A stretch of DNA of 64,000 bases from Romanomermis culicivorax. Taxonomy: Eukaryota; Nematoda; Enoplea; Mermithida; Mermithidae. This document shows, piece by piece, positions 5,223 to 50,274 of the stretch. The stretch's first letter is position 1, and every line of letters starts with the position of its first letter. A program made the translations under genes and the position numbers. The stretch lies in contig CAWUHX010000212.1 of NCBI GenBank assembly GCA_963922205.1, positions 310,001 to 374,000 on the forward strand, given 5' to 3'. A model generated the notes under the pieces. That model searched no databases. It was not told the DNA's origin and saw only the letters and a program-made list of their open reading frames with translations.

Positions 5223-5713
5223 TTGAGGCTTCTGGTCTGAACTGACCTGTTAGAAATAATCCCTTGGCTAAGCCTTGGTGATAGTGCAACAGTCCGGTTC
5301 CCCAGACCTACAACAACAAAGATTACTTTAACTTAGAAGTGGGGCCTCACCAGAGAGCTCCGCAGTCTCCTAGCTGAGACAAGGAATCCCCTCAGGGATA
5401 AACTCACTTGAGTATAACTCTTAGTGGGTTTCCCAAGGCTTGCTGACTGCAAGCTGGCGCCTGGGCCTTTGGCCCTCTGCCTTTGATGATCAAAATTATC
5501 TAAATAATAAACAAATATATTAAACAATATTTCCGACGAAATACTAAAAAGAATGTGGATACACCACAGTTGGTAATATGCAAATAAAGTCGAAGTGCTG
5601 GGAAATATTTTTATGGACGCCAGCAAAACTAACAAGAATACAATAAAAAATACAATTATAGTGAAGAATGATTTTCACTATCATTTTGGGTCTTTCTGTG
5701 GCACTCCACTTCT
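5223..5713. other. Unassigned sequence before truncated element A
   Basis: A more GC-rich block (5,230-5,490) resembles a retroelement leader in texture but matches nothing else in the window with certainty. RT, protease and gag of element A are missing, so the 5' break of A lies here. Confidence 0.35.
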
Positions 5714-7911
5714 ATGCAAATGTCTGCACCACTGGTCGTCCATTTCTTCGATTTGCATGGTGATTTCCCCACGGGACTTTGCCATCAACAGGGTGCCCAA
5801 CAGAAGACTAAAGATGACCAATGGGTAATAGCTTATAGCAGCCAAATCCTTAAGGAAGAAGAGAGGAAGTGGTGTGCTACAGAGGGAGAATGCCTAGCGG
5901 TCATCCATGGTTTTAAAGTTTACAGGCACTATCTGTTTGGGCAAAAAGTATTGATCAAAACTGATCATAAACCTCTTTTATCTATGAAAGTTAATACTCA
6001 AACCAATGATAAATTGAAAAGATGGTATTCCATTATAAATCAATTTAATCATAGATTGGAGTATGAGCCTGGTAGACAAAATGCTATGGCTGACTTCCTC
6101 TCAAGGAAAGATGAACCCCAAGATGCTAAGGACAAGAACCCACCAAAGTGGGAATATGTCTTCAAAATTCAATTTCGTAGTTTCGGAACTCAAACCAATG
6201 AAATTGAAAGCCAAATATTGGTACAACAATTTCAGAGGATAAGGGACGAAGAAATTGAAAGTATAGATGAAAAAATTGTCCCCGAGCAGACCAAGGAGTT
6301 GATGGATATTCAGGAAGTGATGGTAAGAAAGGACAACATTACACCGACTACCAAAGATATATTGCAGAGCAGAGATGAAATGCAGAAGCTTACGCTAGTT
6401 GATGAAGTCACAACTAGAAGACAAGCAAAACTTCACGATCAGAGTGCAGGAAATCAGGAACAGGGTACATCTGTACCAATTGATCCTGAAAACATTGCTT
6501 GGCTTTTCCCGAATAAAGAGAAAGAGTTTGAAGAAGTGGAAGAAACAGAAAATGAAGGAAAGAAGGATGATGATAAGATCAATTATCCAATTGATCTAAA
6601 GGTTATCACTAATCTTACCCCATTTTGGGAAAGATTAGGGGTCAAAAGCACTGCAAAGTATCATAGTGAATTTTATGAGGATAATGGAGTTCTTTATAGG
6701 GAAACTGAGGGACGTGGCCATGATCAGATCGTGGTCCCGAATTCCCTCAGAGACAGCATTCTTTACCAATATCATGGAGCCATTATAATGACACACCAAG
6801 GGTTCAAAAGGACTCTGAGTGTTGTCAAACAGCGGTTCTGGTGGCCTGGCATTGAAAAAGATGTCAGAAATTGGTTGAAGTTTTGCCCTGTCTGCCAAGT
6901 GGCTACTCCCTGTAAAAGCTCCATATCCCTATTGATACCCATTATACCAGAGGGTCCCTTTGATATCGTGTCTGTGGACATAGTAGGGATTGCTTCCTTG
7001 AAGGAACTTGGCCCATATGTCATTGTCTTTCAGGATTATTTCACTAAATGGGTTGAAGCTATATTGATTCCTGATCAGATGGCTGAAACCATAGTGGATG
7101 CATTCTTAGAGCATGTGATATTTAGGCACGGTACCCCAAGAAAACTTCTTAGTGATAATGGATCTGGATTTAATTCAGATCTTATGAAAGCAGTCTGTAA
7201 ACTGTTAGAGTGCAGGAAAATTTTCACAACAGCATACCACTCACAGTGTAATGGTATGGTTGAGAGATTTAACCAAACTCTAATAAAGCAACTGCCAAAA
7301 GTTGCAATTGAGGATAGCAATAAATGGCCAAGGTACCACAGCACAGTGGTATTTTCATATAATGCAACACCCCATGCAGCAAGGAAATGCTCGCCATTTT
7401 CACTGCTGAGGGGGCATGAAGCAAATTTTGGTATCAATTTTACTGCTGCACTTAGAATAGTCATGCCTCATGACTATGAGGCTTATAAGTATGTTTTGGC
7501 TACCCATCTTACAAATTTGTACTAAAGTATTGCCGAAAACATACAAAAAGCTGCTAAGGATGGCAAGAAATATTTTGATAACAAAATTAAAACTTCTGGT
7601 TTTAAAAATCAAGATTGGGTTCTGTTGAAGGTTGACAGACAGAAAAAACTGGGTTACCTTGGCAAGGACCATATATCATCATTGATGATAGAAGATTGAA
7701 AGAGAATGTGCTCACAATAGGGCATTGGAAAAACCCGCTTAAAAAGCAGGTCGTATCGGCAAGTAGGCTAAAACACTTTCGATACGAAGGTACCAGATGG
7801 TCTCAACACAAAAAGTCGCAGGTCTTCCGGGATACTCCAGTTAATGCAACTGGAAATCTCGCGGAGACTGAAGATCATCCGGTTGTTATTTCTGTGTCCA
7901 AAAATTTTTAG
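5714..7911 (+). pseudogene. Element A pol: RNase H and integrase (5'-truncated)
   Basis: Ty3/gypsy-type Pol C-terminal half. RNase H covers roughly residues 25-130 (DQWVIAYSSQ, ATEGECLAVI, TDHKPL, then a MADFLSRKDE end). A charged linker follows, then an integrase zinc-binding region (HQGFKRT, CPVC) and a catalytic core with D (VDIVG), D (SDNGSG) and E (NGMVERFNQ). The frame is open to the TAA at 7,523-7,525, which lies inside coding sequence; homology to C continues to about 7,680, and a shifted frame carries the last part to 7,911. Protease, RT and gag are absent. Domain order and motifs match element C closely, so A and C are one lineage, A being older. It is not functional as it stands. 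Confidence 0.9.
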
Positions 7912-8323: not shown

Positions 8324-11300
8324 ATGTTGAAATTAGGCATCGCGCCTTTGGCCCGAAATTATTGCGCGCACGCTGACCAACCACAAGGCCGCCAAAACAA
8401 TCGTTTTTTTTTTACCGACGGTAAGTTTTATTTAATTATTTCTTGGTATGTGGGACGGATTCGCCTATGTAGGTGTCTTAGGAATGATTTCTTCACGCTC
8501 AATTTTCTGAATGGGCCAACCAAGGGGAAAACGAGTTGGAAGAAAAGTTTCTAAAAATGTTAGGATAGGTGAAAAGAAAAAACCTAATGGATTTATGGCC
8601 CTAAAAAGCCAAAATCTAATGTTTTTTCCCTTGGATCCGATTCAGAAGCATTTATTTTTGGTTTTATTAAAGACCCTGGTTTACTATATTTATTTCTTCA
8701 ATTAATTAAAACTGTAATTGGTTATTTATTCATTACTTACTTTTGGTACCGAGGCATGAAGTTATGGCTAGAGTAAGTGGTAAATTGACGGCGGCCGATG
8801 TCGAGAAGTGAGAGGTGGTGCAGATGTGAGGTTCCTGAAAAATTGGTGTAGCATTTGCATTAACCACCGGGCCTGCTTACTTTATGGCTTTGACACCTAA
8901 CCGCTCTAATTAATTTATTTTTCCCCATGCTAAATATTTTTTCTTAATTTGGTGCCGGTCAAATTTGATTATTTAATTGGTGGTGGTGGCCTAATGCCTG
9001 ATTTTGAAAGGGTCAAGGGTCAAATTATTTTTGATTTTTAGACTATAACATCAAGTGTCTGGTCCCCGTCCGAGAAATCGAACAATGGTTTGCCAGCGCA
9101 ATGGGTTATTGGCTGCATTGACCAATGGAGCCAGAACCGGTCCAGGGCGGCAACATCGAGCCAATCCCGAAACAATTGGCCACAAGCCAGTTTCGGGGGT
9201 TAGGTGTTGTCGGATTCGACGTGGAAAAGGTCAAGAAGACCGAGGTATGTGTCATACCTTATAGAGTAACCATCCAGAACCCGGAAGGGAAAGAGTTTGC
9301 TAGGCTGGTGTCATTTGCACATATAGATGGTTCCAGCTTTGTTATCGACCTTACAACATTGAAGCCCCAGGAATGGGATCTTTTGATTTCATTCCTTTCA
9401 TCGGTGGATGGTTTCTTGGTCAGTTTCAAAGTTTGGACGATCTGGTTGCAATTTTGAACGTCTACGGATCCTGGTCAGGGGCCTCGGCTCATGATAAGAT
9501 GAAAATCATACAGGCCAGTATACTCCAAGGATTTGGAAAATACTGGGACTGTGAGATTTGCATCAGAATGATGATGGGGCCCATGGCCAATCACGCTCGT
9601 GGTTTAGGATTGTGTCCTGAAAACCTTGGGTTAAAAGGGCTTTTCACCGAATTTTACTTGGCTGATGTCGGCAAATATCAATGCGACTTTGGTGACAAAA
9701 AAGTTCGAGAATAGTTCTTGGCCCCCAAGATTCAGGATACTGAAATTGTGTATGCTGGCCTGGACGCCTATTTCTCTATTGCCATATTTTCGGGTTTTTT
9801 TTGCTATGGGTTTTGGGGTAAATTAAGTGGGGTTACGGCAATGTACCCCCATGATATTTTGTCACCAGCCCAAGCGAAAACCTTGGCTTTCCGCTTTTAT
9901 ATGGTCTATTCTCAAGACCTAACGGGGTTCGAGGATTGAAACTTTGTAGATGAGAAAGATATCATAAAAAGGCAGTTATTCAAGGTTTACCACATGATGC
10001 AGCAAGAGGTAATGGCCAGGTGGGCTGCGCAATTTCATAATGACCTGCCGGAGTATTCATGTCCCGCGGATATTAAAAATCCCGCTAAAGCTACAGACCA
10101 CACTTTACTGTCTGGGGTTTATCCCAAGGCACTAAAAGCTGGTCCAAGCAAAAAGAAGGTAAATCAGTGGGAAGATATAAGTGATCCGGAGGACATAGAT
10201 ACAATGGAGCAACAGGTCAACAGGACTATCTAGGTGATAAACCGACTGCATACAGCCTTGACAGGACTGGTCGAAGCAGCTTCAATTGTTTCAATTCGGA
10301 ATGGACTGCTACGAACCAGTGGAAATCAATACTGGTATGGCTAAGTATGACAGAGATCATTCGATGGTGGACTTGAGGAATTACAAGCATGTCATAGACT
10401 CAACAAAGTTTTCTGTGTTCGAAAAGGCATGCAACCAAATTCCTCTATCATTCTTTGTTTTCTGGCCTCATAGCCGTGCCGAGTACGATTACATACTGAG
10501 GGAATTATTAAATTATAATTTCCTTAAATCCTACTCAAAGGAGGATGCAGAGTTAATCAAGAAGATGGCATGGAAGACCGATGATAGGGTTTTACAGAAT
10601 TTCAGCATAGTGGCATCTTTACCGCCAATGGAACCTGAACATGCTGTAAAAGGCAAAAGGGTTATGACCTGACAAAATAGGTTTGGCTTCATGCCTATTC
10701 GGTTGGGCTTGCGCGACAAAATAGGCTCTCCAATTTCGACAGAAAAAGCAAAGGACAATATAACCTATAACAAGGATTGTTGGGCCAACTGCTTTTTCTA
10801 TGTCAGATTCTACTATGCTGAATTCGGAATTAAAACCCCCTTGCTGCAATATGGCCTGGCACCAGATACGCCTACTCTTCAGAGGGTTCAAATTAGATGT
10901 ATACCCGCTGACTATCCAATTTATACATATGAATTTCTTGAGAAGTGTATTCACCCGAGGCCTCTGCCGACGGAATTACTGATGGTTACCTATACATATG
11001 GTAATGAAACCAAACAATCTGATTTCAGGAGGAAATCCAATATACTTGACCCTGATGATGAACCCACAGTTTGGTCGGGTCAAGTGAACCAGGACCTCAT
11101 GGAATTGGAGAGTGAGGATGAAGATAATTCCGCCCTCCTGGGAGAGGAAAGCTGCAAAGACGTTGATGACGAAGACCCATTATTGTATATTTTGATGGCC
11201 CACCCCGAAGTAGCCCAATCTGCGATGACAGCACCTTCTGTCACGCAGCTGCAACCACAACCACAAGTTGTGACGCAGCTGCAACGGGAAATGCTGCCAC

Positions 11301-12998
11301 GGCCGCCTGGCTTACTTACGCCGCAATTGATACAAACATCTATGGATGTGAGTCAGTACTTGTCCAGCATAGAAAGTCAAGCTCAGTCGGAAGAAATTCT
11401 GATTGCCCAGGATGAGCAGAACGTGTATGACCAAGTATATATTAGTCAATACATGGATGCCGAAGATGCAAAGAAGAAGGAGGAAGAACAGACAGCAGGG
11501 ACACCTAGCCATACTGTGGTGGAAACACCACAAGAGCTAGCGGCCCGGCTGGCTGAAGAGGAAAAGGAAATTCGTTTTAGCCTTGACCTGGGATGCAGAA
11601 GGTGTTCCCAGATACTATACTGCTGAGGCTATAAAAAATATGAAACAAAAAGGTTTAAATGATAGGCAAATTTTCGTTAACATGAAAAAGAAATGAAAAA
11701 CAAAAGCCTGTCAGGAGAAGAAAAAGGTAGAAAAGGCATTTGCGCAGCCCGCAAAGGTTACGCAGCCGAAACCTGGCAAAACTTCTGCTCCAGCCTCAGC
11801 AACAGTATCCGTGACCACCCTATCTTCAACTACTCCTATGTTGCAGACTGCCTCTACAGATACTTCATCTATGGCAACGAGTCAGTCTTCTGTCGCAGGC
11901 TACGGACACCTCTGCTTCCAGGTGGTGTCAGCCTAAGGTGCAGGGAGCTCCTAGCAAGCCACAGGTTGCAGGACAAAAAGTTCAACACCAGGAAAAATAA
12001 AGCCATTAACTCTGGTTACTGTTGACGCAAATCAACAAACACCAGAAATGATGGTGGAATTATTCGGGGATGTATTGTTGGATTTTTGGCAAGTTGCCAA
12101 AGATAATAGTAGAGCCAGAGGTCCAATTTCTTTTGCTACACCGGAATTGGCTAATTATTTCTGGGATGAGCAGTTTGAAGATCCAGAGATTTGGCTGATG
12201 GTCAATAAAGCAGTCAGGACTATATACAAACTGTATCAGCCACAGTTTGATGTCCAAGGAGGATTTTTATACGATTCGCGAAATATTCCAGAGCCACTAT
12301 GGGATAGGATCATTCGTGAAATTGTTCTTGAATGGCTCACGGAATATCGAGCGAGTGTCCTATTTGCAGCAGTCAGATACTTGTGTCTAATGATATTCCT
12401 TATGCTTGACTATGCCCCACTTACGGCTGAGCAGATTGGTAAATGATCAGTCTCAGCCAAAGTGTTTGCAAATGTCATGCAGTTACAGGAATATCCGAGT
12501 GCTACTGCTTCCTATGTTTTTAAGACTGCCTATCGCTTGGTGATGTATAATTATAGTCAGCAAGCGTGGGAGATGGATGTCAAAAGGTCAGGTAGCCCAA
12601 GTCCTCCAACTACTGTTAAATTTAGCAAAGTTCAGAACGATGCGGGACGGACCTTTCGAGCACCCGGACTCGCAAGCAGTCTAACTGGTGGTCAAGTAGC
12701 CATGGTTGGTTTAACCAACCAGGTCTCCACTGGCCCCAGTACTGGCACTGGGCAAGCCTCCAGAAGCGTTCCAAAACAACAGCAACCTATACAGCATCCA
12801 CAGGGTACTAGGGGAGCTTGTGGAGGACAGGGAAGGTGTGCCCAACCAGGCCAATTTCATTTTAACAATCCGAACAGGGGCAGAGCTGGTTACCTTGGCG
12901 GCCGGGGTTTATACCGAGGACTACACCCTTGTGGTGCATTCCGAGGTCGTCGAGGTCATCAAAAAGGCCAGCAGCAAGGCGGCGGGCAACAACAATAA
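8324..12998 (+). pseudogene. Element A third ORF: DEDDy exonuclease-like protein (decayed)
   Basis: Exon 1 (8,324-8,420) ends RQNNRFFFTD at a GTAAGT donor; exon 2 starts at 9,042. The exonuclease-like domain spans about 9,150-9,800: motif I FDVE (Asp 9,218, Glu 9,224), motif II around LDDL (9,436), motif III YAGLDAY (Tyr 9,751, Asp 9,763), all DEDDy residues present. A middle region (10,286-11,000) matches C at 46,100-46,560 (IPLSFFVFWPHS here, [12 protein letters not shown] there). An acidic linker, a Ser/Thr/Pro-rich linker, the A0-like helical domain (12,048-12,580) and a Gly/Gln/Arg-rich tail follow. Breaks: TGA near 9,115, frameshift near 9,420, TAG at 9,712, TGA at 9,937, frameshift near 10,240, TGA at 10,670, a frame change near 11,630 and TGA at 12,444. 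No named family fits the whole protein. Confidence 0.75.
8421..9041 (+). other. Intron of element A third ORF (621 nt)
   Basis: GTAAGT donor at 8,421 and TTTTTAG acceptor ending at 9,041. Splicing joins exon 1 after the first base of a codon (phase 1) to a stretch encoding YNIK. Element C has the same phase-1 intron at the same protein position with a YNIK start after the acceptor. Confidence 0.7.
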
Positions 12999-25326: not shown

Positions 25327-25331
25327 TATTT

Positions 25332-25344: not shown

Positions 25345-25367
25345 ATACCGTTAACCACTGGAACTCC

Positions 25368-27245: not shown

Positions 27246-27305
27246 ACCGGCCAAAACGAAAATATACAATGCCCCGCCGCCTCCAATAACACATTGTATT
27301 GGCTG

Positions 27306-28994: not shown

Positions 28995-29136
28995 AAATAT
29001 TTCCCTTTCCCAAAGCATCAGGTCACAAATGAACATGCGTAGGAAATACCATCACACAACCGATGCTTACATGAGACCATTCCTGCTCTCTTAGAATTAG
29101 CTAATCGTCGTGGGGCACAAACACAGCAGAAATACT

Positions 29137-32100: not shown

Positions 32101-32744
32101 TATGCAATGCTCAAAAAATTCATACCACCCCATACCATCCCATTGCGAATGGGGAAGTTGAGCGTTGCAACCAGACCCTAGCCACCCATATCCGCATGTA
32201 CATCAATTCAAATCACACTGATTGGGATACTTATCTACCATATGCCATTTTTTCGATCAACATTCATAAGAATGATAGCACCTCATATCCCCCATTTGAA
32301 TTGCAACTCGGTAGACAGGCTAATCTTCCATCGGACGCAGCTTTAAATTTCTTCCCCACGTCCTACATGGTTGATTTAGTCGATTACGCCCTTCGTGTAA
32401 AATCTCACTTTACTGAAGCACTCTCAACCATACAGAAAAGCTTGCAAAAAGCCCAAGATCACTATACCCGTCAGTATAACAAGCATGCGCAGAACATATG
32501 TTACAAGGCGGGTGATCTTATTCTCTACAAAAATCATTCATGTAAACAAGGGCTGACTCCCAAATTCCTCCCTCACTAAAACGGGCCCTATACAGTTATA
32601 AATTTCATGTACCCCAGCGTTACACTCAAACACACCCATAAGAATATCACATTTACAGTACATGTAAAGGAGACAACCCCTTTCTACCCTCCGAAAGCAC
32701 CTATCGAATCTGCCCCCACCCCTCCTCAACCTCGAAAGCCTTGA
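29137..32744 (+). pseudogene. Element D protease-RT-RNase H-integrase polyprotein (decayed)
   Basis: Retropepsin at about 29,226-29,620 (KGMIDTGAVYSLID, LLGKNFL). RT at 30,060-30,700 (CIDFRGLDK, SLDQSNAYY, LPFGLTNAP, YLDDVL). RNase H follows (QTDASKLGIG, ELETLAVV, TDHTSV), then the integrase zinc-binding region (HHDSKFTGH, CKTCHPC) and core (FIDYFTKYVEA, CDRGSDF, NGEVERCNQ). The C-terminal domain runs to the TGA at 32,742. Breaks: TAA 29,904, a frame change near 30,280, TAA 31,465, a frame change near 31,880, TAA 32,577. Just upstream of the retropepsin, a YFLVDIDTPRTPAIE stretch aligns with the start of the degenerate protease-like domain of element B, suggesting D has lost most of that domain. 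Closest relative in the window is element B. Confidence 0.9.
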
Positions 32745-32761
32745 ACGAGGACGTTCAACTC

Positions 32762-32775
32762 CGGAAGGAAGGAAA
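32762..32775 (+). other. Polypurine tract of element D
   Basis: GGAAGGAAGGAAA directly before TGTAACATACC, the 3' LTR start. Confidence 0.7.
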
Positions 32776-33676
32776 TGTAACATACCTGCTAACGCGGTAC
32801 TGTAAAATATGTAGCATACTGTATGTGATAAACATTTATTAAATATAATTCCTTTTCATATTGTATCATCTCAAGGGTGTCTGGGATTTACACCCAAATA
32901 TTCCTATAAAATTAGGTGAAGTACTTTATTTTGATCCGTTCACACCCCAGTAGCCCAATTAAGATGCCCTAATTAATTTTCACAAACAGCAGCTGGTCCC
33001 CTAGAACCTACACTAAACCACACATTCCACGGCTACTGTAATCCCCCGTAAAAATCGTAAACAACACGTGCACACAGTAAAATGAGTAAAAGCCCCGCCA
33101 GACAGTAGTCTCAAGTGCAACGGTAGCGACTGCCCCACAAAACATGTGTATTCAGAGAAACAGATACAGGAAGCATGCACAGAAGCACAAAGGTGTGGCT
33201 AAGCCCACCGTAGGAAGCAAGCAATACACGAAAAGCATACCGTACTAGAAAAGCATTAAAGGGCGTGACTAAGTAAGCATGAAAAGCAAAGCGGGAAGCG
33301 ACAATTGGCGGAAGAAGATGGACAGAAGCACGACCTTCCACGACGCCCAGGGAGTGGCCAAAAACGTCATATAAAAAGAGAAGCAAAGCGTGATTTTATT
33401 ATTATTGGTCATTATTATTCCTAGTTTTAAATTCATTGTTTGCGATCGTTTTATATTTGCAATTGGCCATTTTTACGAAAGCATTTAAACCGAGGCCCAT
33501 TCGTGTATTTGCAAGCCGAGACTGCGTTCTTTCGTATTGTTGTCGATGTCTCAAAGCAGCCGTCGATTAGTATCCTATCGCCCCATATTGTGAATCACCC
33601 GTCTCCCCCGCGCCATTTCATTGCCGTAACGTCCATTTGGTTAAAGTAAAGTGCTTCACAAAATCTGGTTGTTACA
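32776..33676 (+). repeat. 3' LTR of element D
   Basis: 901 bp, partner of 24,427-25,326, ending GTTACA. The flanking four bases are CGTC (33,677-33,680); before the 5' LTR they are GGTC. That is compatible with a 4-base duplication carrying one change, since the undisturbed B copy reads CCGTCGCTC at this point. Confidence 0.9.
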
Positions 33677-36632: not shown

Positions 36633-36873
36633 CATACCTGTACTTGGGGGGGTTGGGGGGGACCCCCCCCCCCAACTTGGCCAACCCAGTACCCAAAATG
36701 ATTTCCCCCCCCCCCCAACCCCCCCCCCAGTTGGGTAAAAATTGAGAAAATTTGCCAAAAAGTGTATGTTTTTTGGCCTTTTTTGGGAAAAATTTCGACT
36801 TCCTACCCCCCCCCCCCCCCAAAATTTCGGATTTACGCCCCCGCCCCAACTGGTCGGAGGTCTTACAGGTATG
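36633..36873. mobile_element. hAT-type MITE H2, copy a
   Basis: 241 bp with 10-bp perfect inverted ends CATACCTGTA/TACAGGTATG and an exact 8-base duplication GATGTCTT (36,625-36,632 and 36,874-36,881). The interior has C-runs, CAACTTGGCCAACCC and AAAAATTTCGACTTCCTA. It encodes nothing; proline- or glycine-rich frames here are low-complexity artefacts. Confidence 0.92.
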
Positions 36874-36895: not shown

Positions 36896-37253
36896 CAAGG
36901 GGGCCGGGAGGGGGCGACCGCCCTCCCCCTCCCCTCATTGAGGCAGTAACTAAACCGAAAAGATGCGTTTTGGTGGACTTTTAAAGGTCAAAATCTCAAA
37001 ATTTTCGGGCACTTCGCGCCGGTCATGGGTGTAATTATAACTATGTTCTATCAGGCGCGGCCGTTAGCATATCCACTTCGACTTACTAATTAATGCTCAA
37101 CAGTTTCTATCAATCAAGTTAGCTCGTGTCATTTTCTAATGGTTTACAGTCAATTATGTCGCCGAAAATAGAGATTTTTCATCAAGTCTCTCAATTTTTT
37201 TCTCTCGATGATTGGAATATTTTGAACGTTTGCAATCTGAACTTTTGCGTTTA
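36896..37253. mobile_element. hAT element H1, second copy, first part
   Basis: Inverted relative to 19,175-20,202. It contains AGGCAGTAACT, AAAAGATGCGTTTTGGTGGACTT, the CGGGCACTTCGCGCCGG hairpin and TTTGCAATCTGAACTTTTGCG, where element C has inserted. The terminal CATGGCCGTGCGC is not recognisable at this end. It resumes at 49,651. Confidence 0.8.
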
Positions 37254-37826
37254 TGTTGTGGAGCGATTTGGCGTATTTGTAAAGCTCGTGTTGTTTTCGA
37301 AAAAAGATCAGCAAGTTTGAAGGAAAAGATCGTGACGAGACCCACGAAGAGGCGTGGCTACAACGTGAAGAAATCATGAAAATGTTTTTCATTAGATTCC
37401 GTTGTACTGTAGCAGAAACGGTTGTGTTTTGTGTTTTGTATGAAAGTGTGAGGCGGCTACTTGTACATTAGTAAAATCGTGTGAAAAGTGTGTTCTAGGT
37501 TGAGTCGAACTATTTGGAAAATAGTTTGAGTAAGCGAGTGAAACTCCTAAGTGGTTAAGATAATACGGCGCGAGTCTCGGCATCTGAAAACCTTTGGCGA
37601 CCTGAGCGAAGATCCCTGGATAATTGACACAGCGCTCTCTACGAGCCCGTCAATCTCCTGCGTTCGACTATTGTTGCGTTAATTCCGTAAAACACTCCGA
37701 GTGTTTCGTCTATAGCATTCCGCACGCTCTTCTACGTTCCGTACGTCTCTTCTAAAACGCGCGATAAATCCTCAAGCTACACAGCTTTGCGTCCCATCGT
37801 CTACTCTCAATTTCTCACGCACGACA
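37254..37826 (+). repeat. 5' LTR of element C
   Basis: 573 bp, TGTTGTGG...ACGACA, the same length as the 3' LTR at 49,078-49,650 and without indels. I count about 21 mismatches. Four bases before it (TTTA) match the four after the 3' LTR. The intact empty target is visible in the other H1 copy near 19,838, where this sequence appears once (reverse strand). Confidence 0.95.
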
Positions 37827-37831
37827 TAATT

Positions 37832-37844
37832 TGGTGACCGTACC
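37832..37844 (+). other. Primer-binding site of element C
   Basis: TGGTGACCGTACC five bases after the LTR, identical in sequence and spacing to element D. The first eight bases fit a tRNA ending GGTCACCA. Confidence 0.75.
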
Positions 37845-37901
37845 AGCTCATCTAAAGGTTGAGGAAACGCCAAAATTTGCGAAAAATCGAAAATCCGAAA
37901 A

Positions 37902-40100
37902 ATGGAGGAAAACCGCACACGTCGCTCTACTGCGCTCAGTTATGAAAAAAGTTTCTACAAGAAACTAGCAAATCCTGATAATCTAGAAATCGAAAATTTC
38001 GATTGCAAAAACGCGAATCTACCGCTTCTCTACGAAGCAGATAAGCGTAATTTCGATCTACCAGAAACGTCCGCTCCATTAAAAACGCGAAAAACTTCAC
38101 GATCTCTATCTCCGAAAATCGTCGAAAATCGAAAATTCAACTTTCTAAAACCGAAACCGAAGGAGACCGATACTCGAAAAATCTTTGATAATGATGCGTA
38201 TATCGACGTAATGCAAAAATGCGATGCAGAAATGATAAATTTTCGTGGCGACGCTACTAACGCGTTAAGCGAAATCGTGACTATTGCGACTCAACAATGA
38301 AAACTTCTCGATGAGTTTAAAACCGAAATCGAAGCAATGAGAGCTCAGAAAGAAGAGCTAATGAAACCGAATGTTCCTGAAATCGAAAATATCGCGAGAC
38401 CTACGAGCTCTTACGCTCAGTCTCAGAAATCGACTAAACCGAAAAACCTCACTAACGATCGAAAAAGTCAACTTAATTTTCGTAGTATAATTGACGATGA
38501 TAATGATCTAATCATCCCGACACAAACGTTTGGCCGCTCTAACGCGCTAAACGAGCTAAACTCTCAGATAAATTTTCCTTCTATCCCACCTTCTCAGGTG
38601 CATAGATCTTTCGCCCATGATGAAACGAGAATTAAGACTATCTGTAAAAAGATAGCGCCGCAAAAACTAGATAATTCGACCCGAAATCAACAAGTTTTGA
38701 AATTCTTCATTGCGCTCGAAAACGAGTTCGGCCTCGATGCATCTGAGTATGTAAAACTTCACACTTTGCGTCGCTTGACTTGCGATGGTGCCCTGAACAC
38801 CATAAGAGATGTCCGATCCTATGATGAAGCGAAACAGATTTTGATGTGTATGAATGCACCGAATTGCGACCAAGATACGCTCCAATGCGAGCTCCAGTCT
38901 ATCGCTCCTTTTGAAACCGATGATCCATCAGCTTTCTTAAATCGAATCAGTACTTACGTACATCTACTGTACTATGACAGAAGCGCTCAGTATCGCCATA
39001 GAAAAGTTATCACAACTTTTCTTTGGAAAATGCCGGAAATTTACAGAGTCTCGATTGACGCGAGTACTCTAGAAACGATCACCGACTTAGCTATAGCCGT
39101 CGCGAAAGTTCAGAAAATTCAGCGAGCGAATAAACAGTCAACTGTCAGAGTAGAACAACCTATACTGGTTAATACACTCGAAAATCCATCGGAAGAGCAA
39201 CCAGCTCAATCGCGCTTCAGAGACGATTCGAAACCTCAATTCAGAAATAACTCTCAATCCCGAAACAGAGATGACTCTAGACAGCGAAATAGCGTGAGGT
39301 TTCAAGAAAATTCGACTCTAATGAAGACTAAAGAATTGGAAGAAGGCATAAAACGAGTCCTAGAAAAGTTCGGAATCCGAGAAAATTCGCAAAACGCTAA
39401 TAATTTCGAAAATCGAAGATCGCGATTCGATCGCGGTACAAGTCCGAACTTTCGGAATAGAGAAAACATTCTTATACGGGATTTCTCTCAGAATCGAAAC
39501 TTCCAACAAAATCAGTCACGTGAGCGACCGGTGAAATATTGTACCTATCATGGTCAGTGTAAACACGACAGCTCCGAATGCTATCAATTGAAACCACAGG
39601 CTTCTCAGCCTCGGCAACAGCAACCGAATCATCAATGGCGAAATAACCATAATTGGCGTCCTCATTTTCAACAAAATACGCGTAACTACACCCTCAATCA
39701 GAATCAAAATTTTGACCGAAATAACCGATTTTTCAATTGAGATAATCGAAACTATCAGAGAGATGTTGCAAACATTTCTCTCTGCGATTCCGAATCCCGA
39801 CTAGAAAAGATAATCGAGAAGCACTACTACTATCCGATGAATAACTCACAGTCTATACAGACTCAGCTAACTTCTCCGAAATCTTCGCAACAAGTTTTGC
39901 CATCAGAAACTAAAATGGTGTCCAACTCACCTAAACCTTTCGTTCCGATGAAACCGACAACTAGTACAGCTAATATGCTTGAACCGACAGAAGCTTCTAA
40001 AGCTACAAACTTCTTCGTCGCTCCCGGAATCACTGATTTCACAATCGAAAAACCTACTGTCGAATCGAAGAATGTTCGCAAAAAGATATCAAACTTCTGA
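37902..40100 (+). pseudogene. Element C gag (two in-frame TGA codons)
   Basis: One frame runs from ATG 37,902 to TGA 40,098-40,100, broken only by TGA at 38,298 and 39,738. The N-terminal 130 residues are basic and Ser-rich. A capsid-like helical region follows (LDNSTRNQQVLKFFIALENE, a GALNTIRDV turn, SAFLNRISTYVHLLYYD). An Arg/Asn/Gln-rich region leads to a knuckle of C-x2-H-x4-H-x4-C form (CTYHGQCKHDSSEC), seen in several gypsy lineages in place of CCHC. The second stop sits in an Arg/Asn-rich run where CGA is the frequent arginine codon. The last 120 bases overlap pol in another frame. Gag forms the virus-like particle. Confidence 0.85.
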
Positions 40101-43100
40101 GCTTATACGCTCCTACTCTGCTTTTCATATCGATGCCGAAATCGGAAAAACCAAAACAAAAGCGTTAATCGATACCGGTGCTCAGTGTTCAGTCATTTGC
40201 TCATGTCTAGCTCAACGCTCTTTGGGGATTGACTATGATACGTTAGAAACATCCGCGCAGATAAAAGTAGCCGACGGTGCTATCGTCGATGCCAGAGGTC
40301 CGATAATCTTCAAAATCAGTTCATCTTTCGGAATGCATCTAGTACGATGCTGGATACTGCCTACTAGAGGAGAGCAATGCCTCCTAGGAACCGATTTCCT
40401 AGTGCATCCAAGCGTACGAGCCGTAATAAACTTTCGCAAAAATTTCATCAGAATCGGAGACGTTCAACAAGAACTAAATCTAGTTTTAAAACCTATCGAA
40501 AAAGCGCCCTATGACGAAGTATTTTCAAATACTTCTACGGGACTAAGTCAAACGCAAATCGTAAAAATCGACAGATCGCTACCGATTTTGAATATCTCGT
40601 TATGCTACGTAGAACCGAATTGTCAAACGTGGGTTAACGGAAAAATCTTTCCTTTCACAAACGAAAGCTTCAAAAAAGTTATAGTTCAGCCCGTGAACTT
40701 CGGAAAAGAAAACTGTGAATATCGGATCGAACTTGCGATAATCAACATAACTGAAGGCAAATGTCCACTATTATTCGTCAATAATAGTGCGAACGGCATC
40801 CATCTACAACCTAACCAGCTCATCGCTGAGGTTAAATTCAAACTCGAAGAATCAAAAATGACCGTCGCATCGCTAAGCGATCATGAAGAAGACTATGAGC
40901 CAGCGACGTTGGTTAAAGACCAGTCAACTATGTCGGAAGAAGAAAAACTTCAACACGCTCTCGAAAAAATGACCAAAAAATCGAATATCGACGATGAAGA
41001 TAGAAAAATCGCTATCAAAGTCTTCAAGCAGTATCGCGATGTTTTCAGTCTCCCTGGAGATCAACCTACTCTCACTCACGAGTTAACGGTCTCTATAGAC
41101 ACCGGTGATGCAAAACCAGTCGCGAAACACTATCGTGCGCCGATTGAACAAAGACCAATGGTTCGTCAGAAAATTCAAGAAATGCTAGAAAAAGGCCTCA
41201 TAGAACCTTTGCGATCACCGTGGGCTGCACCTATGTTTCTGGTAAGGAAAAAAGATAGAAGTTGGCGACCCGTAGTCAACTATAGAGGTATAAATGAAGT
41301 TACTCGTAGCGATAAGTTTCCGATCCTGAGAATCGATGACTATCTAGATGCTTTAGGCAATGCACGATTTTTCTCAACTCTAGACTTAAAAGCAGGGTAC
41401 TGGCAAATCCCTTTAGACATCGCTTCACGCGATAAAACTACTTTCCTCAGTCAAGAAGGCTTGTTTCGTTTCAAAGTTCTACCTTTTGGTTTGAAAAATG
41501 CTCCCGCTGAATTTCAAAGACTAATGGAACGGATCCTGCATCCATATATCTGGAAAATCTGTTTGGTCTATATCGACGATATCATAGTTTTTTCGCAAAC
41601 GTATAACGATCATCTAGCACACATCCAACTGATCTTTGATGCTCTCCGTGACGCGAATCTAACGCTAAGACCAGATAAATGTGATTTCGTGCCCAAACAA
41701 GTAAAATTTCTTGGTCACTTGCTAAGCGAAAATGGAATCTCGCCTGATCCCGAAAAGGTTTCCGCGATCGTAAACTATGAAATGCCAAAAACGGTCAAAG
41801 ATCTTCAAAGTTTTTTGGGCCTTGTCCAATGGTGTAGACGATTCATACCGAATCTTGCCACTCTCTCACGACGGCTCTATCAACTACTACGAAAAAACGC
41901 GAAATATGAAATAAGTGAAGAACATCGTATAGCTTTTAATGAGATTAAAACATCTCTAACCTCAACTCCTTTTTTGCAATATCCTGTCTATAACGACGAA
42001 AAATCGAAATTCATCATTCAAACTGATGCTGGCACAACTGCTATCGGAGCGATTTTGTATCAAGAAAATGAAACTGATCAATGGGTCATTGCTTACAACA
42101 GTAGAGTTCTGTCTGATGTAGAAACCCGATACAGTACGACTGAGCGCGAATGTCTCGCAATTGTAGAAGCTTTCCGTTGGTACAGACACTATGTCTATGG
42201 TCAAAAAGTAACGGTCAGAACTGACCATAAACCCTTGCAATGGATCAAAGAAGAAAAACATCGAAACTCGCGACTTCAAAATTTTGCAATAAAACTTCAA
42301 GACTACGACTATCGAGTAGAATATGTGAAAGGCAAAGAAAATGCTTACGCTGATTTTCTATCACGAAATGAGCCTCGCGCTGAAGTGAAGTCAAAGACTA
42401 GCGAAGAAGTAACGAATGAAATATTTAGACCGATGTTTCGCGAAGAGAAAAAGACTGTCGCAGCAGCCATAACAAGGTCAATTATGCAAAAAGAAGAAAG
42501 AAATAAAGTGCCGAAGTTCGAAGAAGATTTCCAACAGCCAGAAAAACGGCTAGTAACCATAGAATCGCCGGAAGAAATCAGAGAAGCTCAAAGAAAAGAT
42601 CCGTACATTGCGAAGTTGGTAAAAGTCCTAGAACAGAAACAAATCTCTACGATTTCATCTGCCTTCCATACCGAAAACGAAATAGTGTACCGAACATCGA
42701 AACAAGCTAACACAGCTTCCGCGATAGTAGTTCCGACTACTTTGATTGAAAGCGTTTTGTATCAATTCCACGGTGCAAAGATTTTGAGTCATCAAGGTCA
42801 TAGACGCACTACAGCGATGATTCGTCAACATTTCTGGTGGCTGAAAATGGAAGAATCGATAATAGAGTGGATCAAAACGTGCAAAACATGTCAACAAACA
42901 ACTTCTCAGTTGCCGAAACCACCTCCGTTGATGCCGATTCAACCGAAATATCCATTTGAAATCGTCGCGACCGACATAGTAAACATATCCCCTTTGGGTG
43001 AGAAAAGATCATACGTCATTGTATTTCAAGACTACTTCACTAAATGGGTAAGCGCTCATTTGATTCCGGATCAAAAAGCAGCCACTATAGTTGAAAGTTT

Positions 43101-43839
43101 TGTAAACAACGTAGTTTTGGTTCATGGCAGCCCGAAACATCTACTATCAGATCAGGGTTCAGGATTCACTTCAAACTTGATGAAAGACATCGCGAAACTT
43201 CTAAAAGTTCAGAAAATCAACACAACTGCATATCATCCACAATGTAATGGAATGGTAGAAAGATTCAATCAAACGTTGATTTCACAACTCAAAAAATTCA
43301 CCGCTGAAGACCCCGATAATTGGGAACAGTATCTACCTTTCGCGACATTCGCCTATAACGCTGTTCCTCACACAGCTACTCACTTTTCTCCGTTTGGACT
43401 TTTGCGAGGGTACGAACCCAGAATCGCTATAGATTTCGACTGCGCTAAAAGTCTAACACTACCGCTAAACTACAATGTGTATCAGTACATCTTTACGCAA
43501 GCACAACTAACGCTATATAACGAAGTTTCCGAAAACTTAAAAAACGCGTCCGAATCGCATAAACAATACTTCAATAAGAAAGCGAAAGCGCAGAAATACG
43601 ATCTAAATGATCTCATACTGTTGATTAACAACAAAAAATCGACTAAAATCGACAAGGACTATATTGGACCCTTCATAGTGGTCGAAAACTCCAAAATTTT
43701 GAAAAACGTCATAAGTCTCACTTTCTCGCGTAAAGCCATACATGCCTCGTACGGCATCGGCAATGTTAGAAACCGAAGACAACGGTCCTCCGAAACTTCA
43801 CAAAAATTAAAATTGTTAATTTTGATATATTTCAACTAA
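39979..43839 (+). CDS. pol: Element C Pol: protease, RT, RNase H, integrase (intact frame)
   Basis: 1,286 codons without a stop, about the expected size for a Ty3/gypsy Pol. The protease has [13 protein letters not shown] (around residue 65) and [10 protein letters not shown] has [32 protein letters not shown] and YIDDII (about 415-540), followed by GHLLSENGI. RNase H has [28 protein letters not shown] and YADFLSR. The integrase zinc-binding part has HQGHRRT and CKTCQQ; the core has TDIVN, SDQGSGF and NGMVERFNQ. The frame is +1 relative to gag and overlaps it at 39,979-40,100, so Pol is probably made by a +1 shift; a UUC UGA G site at the gag stop is one candidate. The stated start is simply where the frame opens; translation likely enters from gag. 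Closest relative in the window is element A. Confidence 0.92.
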
Positions 43840-44297
43840 CACTAATTTTTAATTTTGTTAAATAAATTCTAACTATTTAATGATCGTGAGCAAAGCGATG
43901 AGTATAAAGTTTCCGATATTCAAAACGCGCTAAACGCGCTCATACAGATTCTATGTGGAATGAGTGAAAGGAATGTGTGTGATATTATCGTGTGATTTTG
44001 TATTTATTCACGTCCATTTCGAATAAATTGACCTTCCATAAGTAGTTGCGCAGAAAAGAAAAACAGTAGAAAGCGCGCGTCGTAGGAAAATCTTCCTCTG
44101 GTCCCACCCAATCTGAACTTTACATTTTTCGCCATGAGCATGAAAATTTAAATTCGTGGTTTAACAACTATCCACTTTACACCTCCATCTTTTAGCAAGA
44201 TACTTTGGCTTATATTTTCATTTCGAAAAATTGAAACGATAGAGAACGATCGGGTCAATTTGAAATTGTTCAAATACAAAGTTGATAAAGAAAACCG
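43840..44297 (+). other. Spacer between pol and third ORF in element C
   Basis: No gene. Its length is like the spacer in element A. A subgenomic mRNA acceptor could lie here, but none stands out. Confidence 0.4.
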
Positions 44298-44460
44298 ATG
44301 GCGAGTGAATCCGAGGCGACAACGTCGCAAGGATCGGCGATATCCACATCGCTAATAAATCCGCCGCCCATATTTAAAAAATATTTTAACGATCAAGACC
44401 GATATGTGGCGTATCAGAAAAAGCAATACCGTCAAGACGACAGATTTTTCTTTGCCGATG

Positions 44461-44673
44461 GTAAGTTCTGCACTGCGAAATAGACTAAAGTCTCTAAAAA
44501 AGAAACTCCGGGTTTCACTTCCCCTGGGAAGAGTAAAACATCGATCCGTCGATAAAAAATGTGAGTCGCGGTAACTTTGCTAGAAGATTTGCACGCCGCG
44601 ATTCGAAAGAGTGACATTTCCATGGGAAACTAAATCTCACAAAAATTAATCGAAATTTTATGATATTTTATAG
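44461..44673 (+). other. Intron of element C third ORF (213 nt)
   Basis: GTAAGT donor and TTTTATAG acceptor, phase 1. The joined codon is followed by YNIK, exactly as in element A, whose intron is 621 nt and unrelated in sequence. The shared position and phase in two diverged copies argue that the intron is real and kept. Confidence 0.75.
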
Positions 44674-47600
44674 AATACAATATCAAACGAATGATTTCGG
44701 ATCACGGAATTCAAACGGTGGTTCGAGACGGTATATGCTAGACCGCTCAACGTCCTACGTGATCCTCAATACGTTGAGAGCGGAGAATTGAAAGGCGCCC
44801 TATCGGCATATGCGAAACCAAACTTCCGCGGCCACGTGCTAGTCGGATTCGATGCTGAAAAAATCTCGACTAATCAACTATACATACACAAAAAATCAAA
44901 GATGAATATAGTGAACCAGAACGCGACCCACGTCGCTCGGTTCGTCCAGTTGGGTTTTCCCACTGGATACACTATAATGTTCGACGCCTTAGCGGCGACA
45001 CCGGAAGATTGGACGGCCTTCTACGAATTCGTGTCGGCCCCTAAAACGATCGTAATCGGATTCGATCAAGCCGATGATTGGAAATGTCTAAAAGACATGC
45101 ACGGACGTGACTATTACTCATCCGACGCTCGAAAAACGTTCTCTAACGTGCTCGCGCCTAGTATTCTGGTTGACGTCCAGATAATACTAGAAAATATCAA
45201 ACGCTCACCCGAAAAGTGGGAAAGAGCTCGTCTGATCGGCTTGTGCCCCGAAAACAAAAAATTGAAAGGAATCGTTGCCGACGCATTCGAGCTAGACGTA
45301 GAACGCTATACGTTTATTTTCCGCAAGCGAATGATCGAATCGCCTAAGCAGGCAAACCCGACGAACAAGTTCTGACGTATTCGATCCTAGACGCGTATTA
45401 TCCGATACTGATGTTTTTAGCGTATGGACGCTACAGCTTCGTAGACAGCGTTTACGATAATATTCAAATCTTCCCGCACGATTTCTTGCCACCCGAATAC
45501 ATACACATTGCCACACAAAATCTGTATGACAACGCGAACGTCGACCACGAAGGCGACAAAAAGGGCGAATCGGCGTCGTAGATCCGACGCTCTCAAAAAG
45601 TATGTTGCATGCGATCATGCGCGACGAAATCCTAGCATTGAATAGAATCATATTCTATGACTACAACATTCCGAATATGCGATTCTGCTTATATAATCAC
45701 ATAAACATGGAGCACTCCACTAAACCACTCTGCCTAAAAATGCACCCTACGAAACTACCGACGATAAAGGGTAGCAGAAACAACACGTCCTCTTTGACCG
45801 ACGACGGAAAAATTGAACCGTACGACGACGCCGCTGTATGCGCCAGAGTTATAGAGCGAGCTTTACGCTCCAATGACGTAGTTAGTATTCATCATGAAGT
45901 CGGCGCTCCTATGTCGTTACTATTTCCTTCCGAAATAGATCAAAACATGGTGACAAGCGACGAAGCGAAACAAATAAACTTCAACTTAGTCGTAAACGAT
46001 CCATTTACAACCTACGGTCCTCCCGAAACGTGGCCAATCTACGAAATAAAATGAGATCATCAGATCGCTGAAAAGCCACCTCTAACGCCGCTCTACGCGC
46101 TTCCGAATCACCATCAATGGATGAACGCTGTTCGCGGAACTATGCCGCTAGTCGCTCATGTCTGCTCCCCACATTCCGAAATGGAATTGCGAGCCATAAT
46201 CAAAAATGAGATCTCGAAACTGCTATCGAAAAGTGACAGTATCGACATAGATCTCATCTGCGAACAAAATTGGGTGAAACGAGACAGAACGTTCGAATTC
46301 GAACTGATGGAATGGGCTAGTCGCTTGCCCTATAACGAAAAAAGTCGCAGCGACAATAAACGACCCATATACGCGAATCGATATTTTATGCGCCAAATCG
46401 TATTCAGAAATGACAGCTTCCCTGTCTCCAACGAAACTGATCTTGTAACGAAAAAGAAGTATAGGGAAAATCCCTACTACTATTTTTCATACAATTCACC
46501 GATTTTGACGTCAAGAAAATGCGAGCAACTCATTTGTTTCCCGCCGAGTCATATCTTAACAATGAGTAATTTGCCCGTAATACCGACTGCTATATTGACG
46601 GGAGAAAGTCCGACAAAAACGCCTACACAGGCTCCTACACAATCCATCGCGGATACCGAATTTGACTCGGAAATGGCGATGGCCGTCGATTCGTTGCTCA
46701 AACAAACCGCCGAAGAATCGTTCACGGTAAAAACAGAATTACCAACCGAAACCAACATTATACAACTCGAAAGCGAAGAAGAAGACGTATCCACAGCTGA
46801 TACTACTGCTCCTATAACAACAACTAAAACCACGTCCTCCTTAACTCCGTTATCCAAAAACTTATCGTACAGTACATTCGAATTGGAATCGGGAGCGATA
46901 AAAAATCGAAACATACAAGAAAAAGCCGCGCTGGTAAAAACCACTTCGATGTACGATATCTCGCGAATGGATGACGTAGAAGAAGATGAAACGAAAATGG
47001 TACCCCCAAAAATAGTACCTACCCGGTACCGAATACTGAAGAAAAACGAGGAAGACACCTCTACTCCTATCAGTACCGAAACCGCCACTCCAGTTTTGGA
47101 AGTAAAAGACGATCAACTTTGCGACGAACATGGTGAACCTATTCATAATGTCAGAGCATATCAGTTTTCACTGTTTCGCAGACGAAATGCTATCGATAAA
47201 CAGTTGCGCACAATACAGGATTATCTGGACACTCATCCAGAAGATCCTAATTACATGCCCCCAGCTAAAAAACGACGCGATTCGCGGGAAGATACCCGAA
47301 GTAGAGAACGAAAGGAAACCTATTCGCGATCACGAGAACGACCTTCGCAGTCTACTGCCCAAAAAGAAAGCTACGATTATGACAGTCGAAAATATCGACA
47401 TGGTGAATACGCATCGAACAAGCGTCCTAGAAAACTTCACTGAGATCGCGATTATAGACGAGAACATCCTAGTGAATCAAAAGATCGACAAAAGAGAATC
47501 GAATGGGCTAGTGCCTTGAAGCGCGATCAATTGCGAAAAGAACAGTTAGAGGGCCAACAGCCTCCGACGGCCGGCTCCGAACCGATGATCGATGAACCAA

Positions 47601-48328
47601 CAACGTCGCAGCAAGCTGAAATGGTTAGCGAACAACAAAAACCGCAGCGAACTGTTCGAGAATATAAAATCCCATACCGACGACACGATAGACCGCGTAC
47701 ACCGCCCGAGCAATGGTACCCCAGCCTACCTACTGCGCCTATTACGGCCCAAATCCAACCGAGAACGACCGATGAAGTAATTATCATTAATTACTTCAAT
47801 CGTTCTCATTTGGATTTCGATCCCGTCATTTTAGGTCAAGCCACCGAGGCTTCGCAACAAATAGCGCAGGACTTCCCTGACTATTTCCAAGCACGATATT
47901 TGCGACGAGATCCGCATTGCACAGAAGAACTCACTGCAGTTCTTCTAAGCTGGATGTGTGATTACTACAAGTATTACGGCGCTGAAAACGCAATCGTGAT
48001 AACACAGCTCACACTTGTCTTCCACGCCAGACAGGCCTACGATTACAAAACGACCGATAATTCGTATTCGATGGCTCTACGCTACATTTTGCAATGCCTG
48101 ACCGATACGCGAGCCCCGAATTATCCGGTGACCGAAGAAAGAAAGGCCATCGTCCGAGACATTCATCACAAGTATCAAATCGAAATGGACAAACGAGCCG
48201 AGGAAAAGAAAAAGAAAGACGCGATGACAAAGGCAAAAGCGGTTGTACCGCAAAAGTATCAAATGACACCGGCCCCGATCATCACTATGACAATGGCCGC
48301 GACGACTCAACCATCGGTGGTTGGAGTT

Positions 48329-48570
48329 CATACCTGTACTTGGGGGGGTTGGGGGGGACCCCCCCCCCCCCAACTCGGCCAACCCTATACCCAAAATCAT
48401 TTCCCCCCCAACCCCCCCCCCCTTCAGTTTGGAAAAAAAAATTTTTTTTCAAAAAAGTGTATGTTTTTTGGCCTTCTTTGGGAAAAATTTCGACTTTTTC
48501 CTACCCCCCCCCCCCCAAAATTTCGGATTTACCCCCCCCCCCCCAACTGGTCGGAAGTCTTACAGGTATG
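48329..48570. mobile_element. hAT-type MITE H2, copy b, inserted in element C third ORF
   Basis: 242 bp with the same inverted ends as copy a (CATACCTGTA/TACAGGTATG). The 8-base duplication TTGGAGTT is exact (48,321-48,328 and 48,571-48,578). The coding frame before it continues after it, displaced by the 250 added bases, so it inserted into a formerly open frame after element C had integrated or in its parent copy. Confidence 0.93.
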
Positions 48571-48728
48571 TTGGAGTTCGAACATCATTGTGTGCCGCGC
48601 AACGAGCTTTGGCCCCACGTGCGCCGACTACAAGCCAATCGATACAGATGCCCCCGCCGGGTATTCTGAAAGCGAGCAAAACCCCGACCAAAGTTTTGCC
48701 TAAAGGTCGCGGATTTCCGCCGAAATGA

Positions 48729-49063
48729 GTCGAAATGGATAAGTATCACGATGCTAACACATCTCTTTTCCTTTCATTAGTTTATTCTTTTTCCACTAGA
48801 ATCTTTTCTTTCAAATCTCTAAAAATTTTAAATTTCTCGGTGTGAAATACTAGTTTTCATTTGCTCATCACTTTGTGCCGTAACATTTTTTGTGATAACA
48901 TTGTTTGAATTTTCTTTGTTTGTGTAGTATGTGCCGCAGCGTAGAGAAACGAGAAAGACAAACTGTCGAAAGAAACTTGCCTAAAAAACGAGCTAAATGC
49001 TCTCATTCGATCAAAACGTCAATTCATCACGACACGTCGAAATCGCTTAAGGCGATTTACATC
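48729..49063 (+). other. 3' untranslated part of element C
   Basis: Between the third-ORF stop and the polypurine tract. No gene; a short frame at 48,905-49,144 runs into the LTR and is not supported. Confidence 0.5.
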
Positions 49064-49077
49064 GAAAGGGGGAGGAG
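49064..49077 (+). other. Polypurine tract of element C
   Basis: GAAAGGGGGAGGAG directly before TGTTGTGG of the 3' LTR. Confidence 0.85.
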
Positions 49078-49650
49078 TGTTGTGGAGCGATTTGGCGTAT
49101 TTGTAAAGCTCGTGTTGTTTTCGAAAAAAGATTGGCAAGTTTGAAGGAAAAGATCGTGACGAGACCCGCAAAGAGGCGTGGCTACAACGTGAAGAAATCA
49201 TGAAAATGTTTTTCATTAGATTCCATTGTACTGTAGCAGAAACGATTGTGTTTTGTGTTTTGTCTGAAAGTGTGAGGCGGCTACTTGTACATTAGTAAAA
49301 TCATGTGAAAAGTGTGTTCTAGGTTGAGTCAAACTATTTGGAAAATAGTTTGAGTAAGCGAGTGAAACTCCTAAGCGGTTAAGATAATACGGCGCGAGTC
49401 TCGGCATCCGAAAACCTTTGGCGACCTGAGCGAAGATCCCTGGATAATTGACACAGCGCTCTCTACGAGCCCGTCAATCTCCTGCGTTCGACTATCGTTG
49501 CCTTAATTCCATAAAACACTCTGAGTGTTTCGTCTATAGCGTTCCGCATGCTCTTCTACGTTCCGTACGTCTCTTCTAAAACGCGCGATAAATCGTCAAG
49601 CTAGACAGCTCTGCGTCCCGTCGTCTACTCTCAATTTCTCACGCACGACA
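49078..49650 (+). repeat. 3' LTR of element C
   Basis: 573 bp, partner of 37,254-37,826. TTTA follows at 49,651-49,654 (target duplication). Most differences between the two LTRs are CG versus TG or CA. Confidence 0.95.
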
Positions 49651-50274
49651 TTTATTGAAGGTGGAAATTGAAGACATTACTCTAGAACGCGATTTCAAAC
49701 CATTTGTTCACGAATTATCTGATGGAGAGATTTATTTTTCAGCGTTTTAGAATACAAAAACCCGAAAATTTTTCCGGCGCTTCGCGCCGAAATGGGAGGC
49801 AAATTACGCTTCATCAGTCTGATTTTAATTTATTTCCAAACGTAATGAAGGTTCATTTTCCAGCGTTTTAGAAAGTGAAAATCAAAAAATTTTTCCGGCG
49901 CTCCGCGTCGGACCATTCTATAGAACACCAATATATTCTTCATGAGCTCATTTTGACTAACATAACCAGAATTTTCTCAATTTTTTTCCTCATTTTTGCA
50001 GGTTTCTGACTACAAATACAACAAAATGCTTGGGTATGCTCCTAAAATGCATAAAAAAGCATCCGTAGCCACATTATAAGCGTTTTTAAAAATAAGGAAA
50101 ATTTTTGGAAAATGAAAAAAATTTTGAGTCCGGTTCTCATGTGGAAAAAATCTTCGAGGAAAAAAACGGTGATGCACACAGTATATCCGCGTAAGATCAA
50201 CATTTTCTGGGGCTATTCAGTGAAAAAATCTAGTCCGCCCCCCCCCCCCTGAAAAAATCCTGCGCACGGCCCTG
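49651..50274. mobile_element. hAT element H1, second copy, remainder
   Basis: Continues the H1 copy split by element C and ends CCTGCGCACGGCCCTG, the exact reverse complement of the H1 terminus at 19,175. It carries two blocks with the TTTTTCCGGCGCT.CGCG hairpin. No coding sequence. Confidence 0.88.

Follow-up and report, generated by a model that had tools for sequence, protein, structure and literature searches.

RNase D, WRN, Rrp6 and MUT-7 are cellular DEDDy exonucleases, and enzymes of this family are also encoded by retroelements. RNase D-like DEDDy proteins were described by Rodriguez, Kenefick and Arkhipova in 2017 as products of a third open reading frame (ORF3) in Juno and Vesta, long terminal repeat (LTR) retrotransposons of bdelloid rotifers (PMC5408684). 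A DEDDy 3'-exonuclease is likewise an accessory function of the Athena/Terminon elements (PMC6431247). In this study we describe LTR retrotransposons with a candidate DEDDy ORF3 in Romanomermis culicivorax, a mosquito-killing mermithid nematode. The window, a stretch of 64,000 nucleotides (C212:310001-374000), contains element C, an LTR retrotransposon with a Ty3/gypsy-type Pol at 37254-49650, and its diverged relative element A, whose Pol remnants at 5801-7690 are similar to the Pol of element C. The published long-read genome of this species measures 359 Mb, of which transposable elements account for 289 Mb (PMC10879605); copies were sought in 359,112,060 bases.

The explanation that we consider probable is that elements A and C belong to a Ty3/gypsy-type lineage encoding a third protein after Pol, of 1,324 amino acids in C and about 1,391 in A. 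It would be made from a spliced RNA and would combine an active N-terminal DEDDy exonuclease with a long region of acidic, basic and RS- or RG-rich stretches. As in Juno and Vesta, an LTR retrotransposon with a Pol of the order protease, reverse transcriptase, RNase H and integrase carries an RNase D-like DEDDy ORF3 after the integrase, although here the domain is assigned by way of a further family, E, and as in the rotifers this is found in more than one lineage. There are also differences. The host is a nematode, ORF3 is about 1,324-1,391 amino acids long with an intron-like interval in both A and C, and none of the 13 Pfam families that the Pol of element C matched at E 1 or below was a dUTPase, whereas all Juno and Vesta elements have one (PMC5408684). 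The catalytic set also differs, since DEDD is changed to DEED in Juno and Vesta according to their published description (PMC5408684), on which our comparison with the rotifer ORF3s is based, and reads D-E-D-(Y)-D here. The Athena/Terminon elements are more distant, being giant (up to 40 kb) and telomeric with a Penelope-like reverse transcriptase (PMC6431247). With RNase D, WRN, Rrp6 and MUT-7 (PF01612) the nematode proteins share the motif order D-x-E, D, Y-x3-D, and two families, E and F, match PF01612. Unlike the cellular enzymes they are element-borne and fused to a long C-terminal region, and those of A and C are too diverged for a direct match.

The earlier note on this DNA, made from the sequence alone, knew of no described LTR lineage with such a protein. 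This claim fails, because the DEDDy ORF3s of Juno and Vesta were reported in 2017 (PMC5408684). As far as searched, what is new is the phylum, the large size of the protein, its occurrence in several families and the intron that these have in common. No nematode LTR retrotransposon with a DEDDy ORF3 was found in the literature by title and abstract opening, subscription papers lying mostly outside this scope. All protein database matches to ORF3 were named Romanomermis (35 for the exonuclease region, from Romanomermis culicivorax; at least 70 among the best 8000 candidates; and 6), but such a search needs shared exact words and therefore does not show absence elsewhere. These findings indicate that DEDDy exonuclease ORFs are not confined to rotifer retroelements but occur in several gypsy-like families of one nematode genome.

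Element C has LTRs ending in TG..CA and is flanked by a 4-bp target duplication, TTTA, at 37250-37253 and 49651-49654. Its Pol matches PF13975, PF00078, PF17917/PF17919, PF17921 and PF00665, which gives the domain order protease, reverse transcriptase, RNase H and integrase. ORF3 extends from an ATG at 44298 to a stop codon at 48726-48728 and lies between the integrase and the 3' LTR. That a long third ORF follows an intact gypsy Pol inside the LTRs, as had been proposed earlier, holds for its position, for the open Pol of 1295 amino acids and for the span 44298-48728. The window copy, however, is not one open frame. It is broken by a frame change near 45310-45325, by further stops and by an inserted short repeat at 48330-48569.

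Other copies in the genome are intact. At least 150 C-type ORF3 matches were found, the window copy included, and among these best 150 of 2876 candidates 27 have a stop-free exon 2 frame of 1273 codons. Eight C-type loci were read. Seven span the whole ORF3 and are open; their intron-like interval is 213-214 nt long and the spliced frame would have 1324 codons; the eighth (L033), whose 5' side is cut off in the fetched stretch, is open over its 1109 codons. The LTR start motif follows ORF3 in all eight. A Pol tail precedes ORF3 in each of the 30 fetched C loci (the window copy among them). None of them lacks the upstream block or those of exon 1, the intron and the exonuclease. The A-type family is similarly numerous, with at least 150 matches including element A (the best 150 of 2239 candidates), of which 14 have a frame of 1356 codons. 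Of these, L043+L069 was followed to the end of its frame and proved open over all 1356 codons; its exon 1 has 37 codons and its intron-like interval 621 nt. A Pol-tail block lies upstream in 29 of the 30 fetched A loci.

The proposed exonuclease domain forms the N-terminal part of ORF3. In element C we found the motifs FDAEK, GFDQADDWKCLKD and YSILDAYY in the order of RNase D and WRN, as noted before, the last of them in another frame; the final two catalytic residues (Y, D) of the window copy lie in the shifted frame. The same domain follows the integrase of element A at 9014-10017. It is scattered there over pieces in several frames, with about 21-41% identity to C per piece. The residues D-E-D-Y-D of A stand at positions matching those of C, in agreement with the earlier statement that the catalytic positions are kept. 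When one open copy of each family was compared, exon 2 of A and C aligned over 786 columns with 25% identity (pairwise E 6e-42), which together with the five matching positions argues that the likeness is not due to chance. The order D-x-E, D, Y-x3-D is present in A and C in the alignment and can be seen by eye in families E and F. In UniProt two C-type fragments are named '3'-5' exonuclease domain-containing' and one 'NurA domain-containing'. The long region behind the exonuclease, in which acidic and basic stretches occur beside others rich in RS or, in A, in RG, looks like a part of the protein that contacts RNA.

The connection to known enzymes comes from a profile scan of the genome with PF01612, in which 119 candidates were scored and 116 matched with an E-value of 1 or lower. 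Seven rows lay in frames of 1232-1398 codons, and the three that were read (L071, L072 and L077) proved to be one family, E. In pairwise comparison the exonuclease region of this family shares 45% identity with that of A (1e-101) and 28% with that of C (2e-30). At L071 the upstream Pol tail is 71% identical to A and 46% to C; it is followed by an open stretch ending in ..YFLVD and then by a 638-nt interval at the same place and in the same phase as the intron-like interval of A and C. PF01612 was the sole Pfam family matched by family E (E 8.8e-4 and 9.7e-4), at 19.6 bits and hence below the cut-off of 23.6, and one E-type locus clears the cut-off when taken with its neighbours. Because family E is homologous to A and C and matches PF01612, A and C are linked to this family indirectly.

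Twelve further rows of the scan lay in frames of 608-610 codons, eleven of them without stops. Family F was defined from one of these (L074) and from L073, which has a shorter frame and is 78% identical to L074. Its matches to PF01612 are strong (E 9.5e-14 and 3.6e-11); apart from these, each copy matched one other family weakly (0.036, 0.087). In the one F locus viewed in context (L075, L074 and L076; C69:275000-280600) a gypsy-like Pol lies directly upstream of the 608-codon frame; it is very diverged, with 22-28% identity to the Pols of the window. A profile built from A, C and E aligned to F with a score of 37.2 (P 3.2e-4, hhalign probability 38.6%). The score fell to 14.2 when F was reversed, and 100 column shuffles, run without the realignment step, reached at most 25.7. 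The earlier identification as a DEDDy exonuclease thus draws its support from families E and F, while neither A nor C alone matches exonuclease profiles, an outcome that the earlier note had named as speaking against it. We regard the presence of a DEDDy 3'-5' exonuclease domain at the start of ORF3 as supported, but indirectly.

The second unusual feature of ORF3 is the intron-like interval. It occupies the same position and phase in A, C and E and measures 213-214 nt in C, 621 nt in A and 638 nt in E. The residues around the junction are alike in C- and A-type proteins (..FLTD|DYNIKRLV.. and ..FFAD|EYNIKRMI..). All 30 C loci contain the interval, and in 29 of 30 A loci it has its full length. 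Since it is retained in genomic copies, the RNA that is reverse transcribed must presumably be unspliced. An acceptor-like TTTTAG occurs at about window position 44190, some 110 nt 5' of exon 1. Its context is exact in 27 of 30 C copies, with near versions in the remaining three, and it may possibly serve a subgenomic or spliced-leader RNA. A 5' splice donor was sought in the leader or gag with six short patterns, of which a single GTATGT was found. Splicing in an LTR retrotransposon is already known from BARE (PMC3735527), and therefore we do not claim the intron as such to be new.

Selection was compared across copies, as the earlier note had proposed for the exonuclease motifs. For the seven open C copies the pooled ratio of nonsynonymous to synonymous differences per site (pN/pS), calculated from 1323 of the 1324 codons with the final codon dropped, was 0.135 for ORF3, 0.154 for the exonuclease and 0.094-0.165 elsewhere; the value of 0.096 for exon 1 rests on few differences (1.9 and 5.3 per pair). 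For the A exonuclease it was 0.219 in 19 of 29 copies, the set comprising those with an open ungapped exonuclease and a full exon 1 and intron (10 were dropped and the window copy was excluded). These values are signs of purifying selection on ORF3, and selection together with copy number supports the view that ORF3 is a working gene.

Several observations weigh against this explanation. Taken separately, the A and C domains matched no exonuclease among Pfam, NCBIfam and PDB sequences. Frames of 1273 or 1356 codons were absent from the rows of the PF01612 genome scan, so that the open C- and A-type ORF3s were missed by the scan. Alignment to family F was weak for C alone (hhalign score 20.5) and for A alone (23.4). 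With the A+C profile E. coli RNase D came top of 11 E. coli proteins, yet 4 of 200 shuffles equalled it, and the A+C+E profile matched E. coli RNase D with a P of only 0.093. All five catalytic residues are kept in 29 of 30 fetched copies per family, but at mean identities to the reference of 0.982 and 0.971 such retention says little. The pN/pS values are pooled over pairs without a tree, from related copies picked for similarity and openness, and the exonuclease of C is no more constrained than the remaining ORF3 (0.154 versus 0.135). The extra ORFs of the rotifer elements are reported to show neither a significant departure from neutrality nor a clear link with copy number (PMC5408684). Finally, splicing of the intron-like interval is deduced from sequence.

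If our explanation is correct, ORF3 would be translated from spliced RNA and unspliced RNA would serve as the replicating genome, which would explain why the intron persists in the copies. The protein would be an active RNA-directed 3'-5' exonuclease whose target is either the ribonucleoprotein of the element or those host RNAs that are directed against it. As to the substrate, our guess slightly favours RNA or primer ends of the element itself over small RNAs of the host. With several ORF3 families in one genome, the role of such an accessory exonuclease can be tested by comparing them, and the intron shared by A, C and E gives access to the question of how genomic and messenger RNA are kept apart in these elements.

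The intron itself might have a function. In both C and A it is less diverged between copies than the synonymous sites of the flanking exons. In C its mean divergence is 0.0225 (29 copies), compared with 0.070 at fourfold sites of the exonuclease (21 of the 29 copies, ungapped, where the intron gives 0.0217) and 0.102 at those of exon 1; in A it is 0.031 against a pS of 0.090 and 0.058 at fourfold sites (19 copies). A possible explanation could lie in a constrained sequence that marks unspliced genomic RNA for packaging or nuclear export, so that this RNA alone would be copied, while spliced RNA yields an exonuclease that shields the element from host small-RNA silencing. We think this unlikely, if worth bearing in mind. 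Non-coding sequence just upstream of ORF3 is also little diverged in C (0.031, versus 0.059 in A; the LTRs of C give 0.054), so the contrast may partly reflect fast synonymous change. Folding of the intron RNA indicated no strong structure (z -1.45 and -0.95; the 258 nt upstream gave z +1.12), and at gathering scores no Rfam family matched the window. Were the proposal true, an intron kept at a conserved position in LTR retrotransposon families whose ORF3s are only about 25% identical would amount to a retrovirus-like RNA partition system without Env.

The alternative that survives best overlaps with our explanation, as a special case of it. ORF3 may be a counter-silencing protein that degrades or trims host small RNAs or their precursors. 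MUT-7 and Nibbler are DEDDy enzymes of this kind. The former acts in post-transcriptional silencing (PMC5408684) and the latter in piRNA trimming (PMC13269885), and the maintenance of ORF3 under apparent selection in high-copy families would fit such a role. We treat it as a tentative possibility, somewhat doubtful in this specific form.

Alternatively, the DEDD-fold domain could be a catalytically silent RNA-binding module, and the protein as a whole would then have a structural role in the ribonucleoprotein of the element. There is precedent in Maelstrom and EXD1, which are described as inactive DEDD derivatives (PMC5408684). The great sequence distance from known enzymes, with no direct match for A or C, would agree with this, as would the C-terminal region, which by eye has an RNA-binding look. 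Inactive DEDD relatives, however, usually lose catalytic residues. Here A and C, although 25% identical, agree in all five and the motifs are recognisable by eye in E and F, which makes a silent module distinctly improbable.

It might also be thought that the motif likeness is coincidental and that ORF3 does not begin with a DEDD nuclease at all. Such a view could point to the lack of a direct profile match for A or C, to the PDB profile matches that were obtained (Psb28 and ferritin) and to family E remaining under the Pfam cut-off when taken alone. It is difficult to reconcile with the fact that E, which is clearly homologous to A and C, has PF01612 as its sole Pfam match, that seven long-frame rows occur in the PF01612 scan, one of them over the cut-off with its neighbours and the three read being E-type, and that the A+C+E profile against F beats all 100 column shuffles. 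We therefore consider coincidence very improbable. That ORF3 replaces Env and serves cell-to-cell transfer is hardly credible, since its occupation of the env position is set against the absence of an Env-like Pfam match in the C exon 2 frame or the first 632 A-type codons, of any obvious membrane segment (judged by eye only, with no predictor), and against RS/RG-rich stretches that suggest contact with nucleic acid.

Table 1. Features of elements C and A, in window coordinates
Feature	Position	Strand	Basis
5' LTR of element C, 573 bp	37254..37826	+	21/573 mismatches to the 3' LTR
3' LTR of element C, 573 bp	49078..49650	+	pairs with the 5' LTR, 21 mismatches
Pol open frame of element C, 1295 aa	39952..43839	+	ORF listing and Pfam
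ORF3 exon 1 of element C, 54 codons + 1 base	44298..44460	+	sequence; block in 30/30 fetched loci including the window copy
ORF3 intron-like interval of element C, 213 nt, GTAAGT..TTTATAG (putative)	44461..44673	+	from sequence; 30/30 loci
ORF3 exon 2 of element C, broken in the window copy; 1273-codon stop-to-stop frame in open copies	44674..48728	+	
Candidate DEDDy exonuclease domain in exon 2 of element C (D, E, D, Y, D), end approximate	44695..45512	+	alignments
Pol remnant of element A, RNase H to integrase end	5672..7911	+	similarity to the Pol of C for 5801-7690
ORF3 exon 1 of element A	8324..8420	+	by eye, against A-family copy L043
ORF3 intron-like interval of element A, 621 nt, position and phase as in C	8421..9041	+	621 nt in L043 too
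ORF3 exon 2 of element A, broken; 1356-codon frame in open family members	9042..12998	+	

Two other elements with a Ty3-type Pol (B and D) are present in the window, at 15231-24417 and 24427-33676. Their LTRs are about 1172 and 901 bp long, each pair being about 92% identical. In both, a few hundred bases at most separate the end of Pol from the 3' LTR, with no comparable ORF between. ORF3 is therefore not universal among the gypsy-like elements of the window, since these two have similar Pols and lack it.

By eye we suspected a C-terminal domain common to the ORF3s of F and C, but the similarity was not significant (E 0.059 at best). The PF01612 scan also returned three fragments of equal score lying 5778 bases apart (G000:C158:182213-193990), which suggests a tandem array carrying an exonuclease fragment. 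Lastly, C-rich short inserted repeats were noticed at window positions 48330-48569 and 36634-36872. They have the ends ATACCTGTA..TACAGGTAT and an apparent target duplication of about 10 bp, and the first of them is the one that sits within ORF3 of element C.

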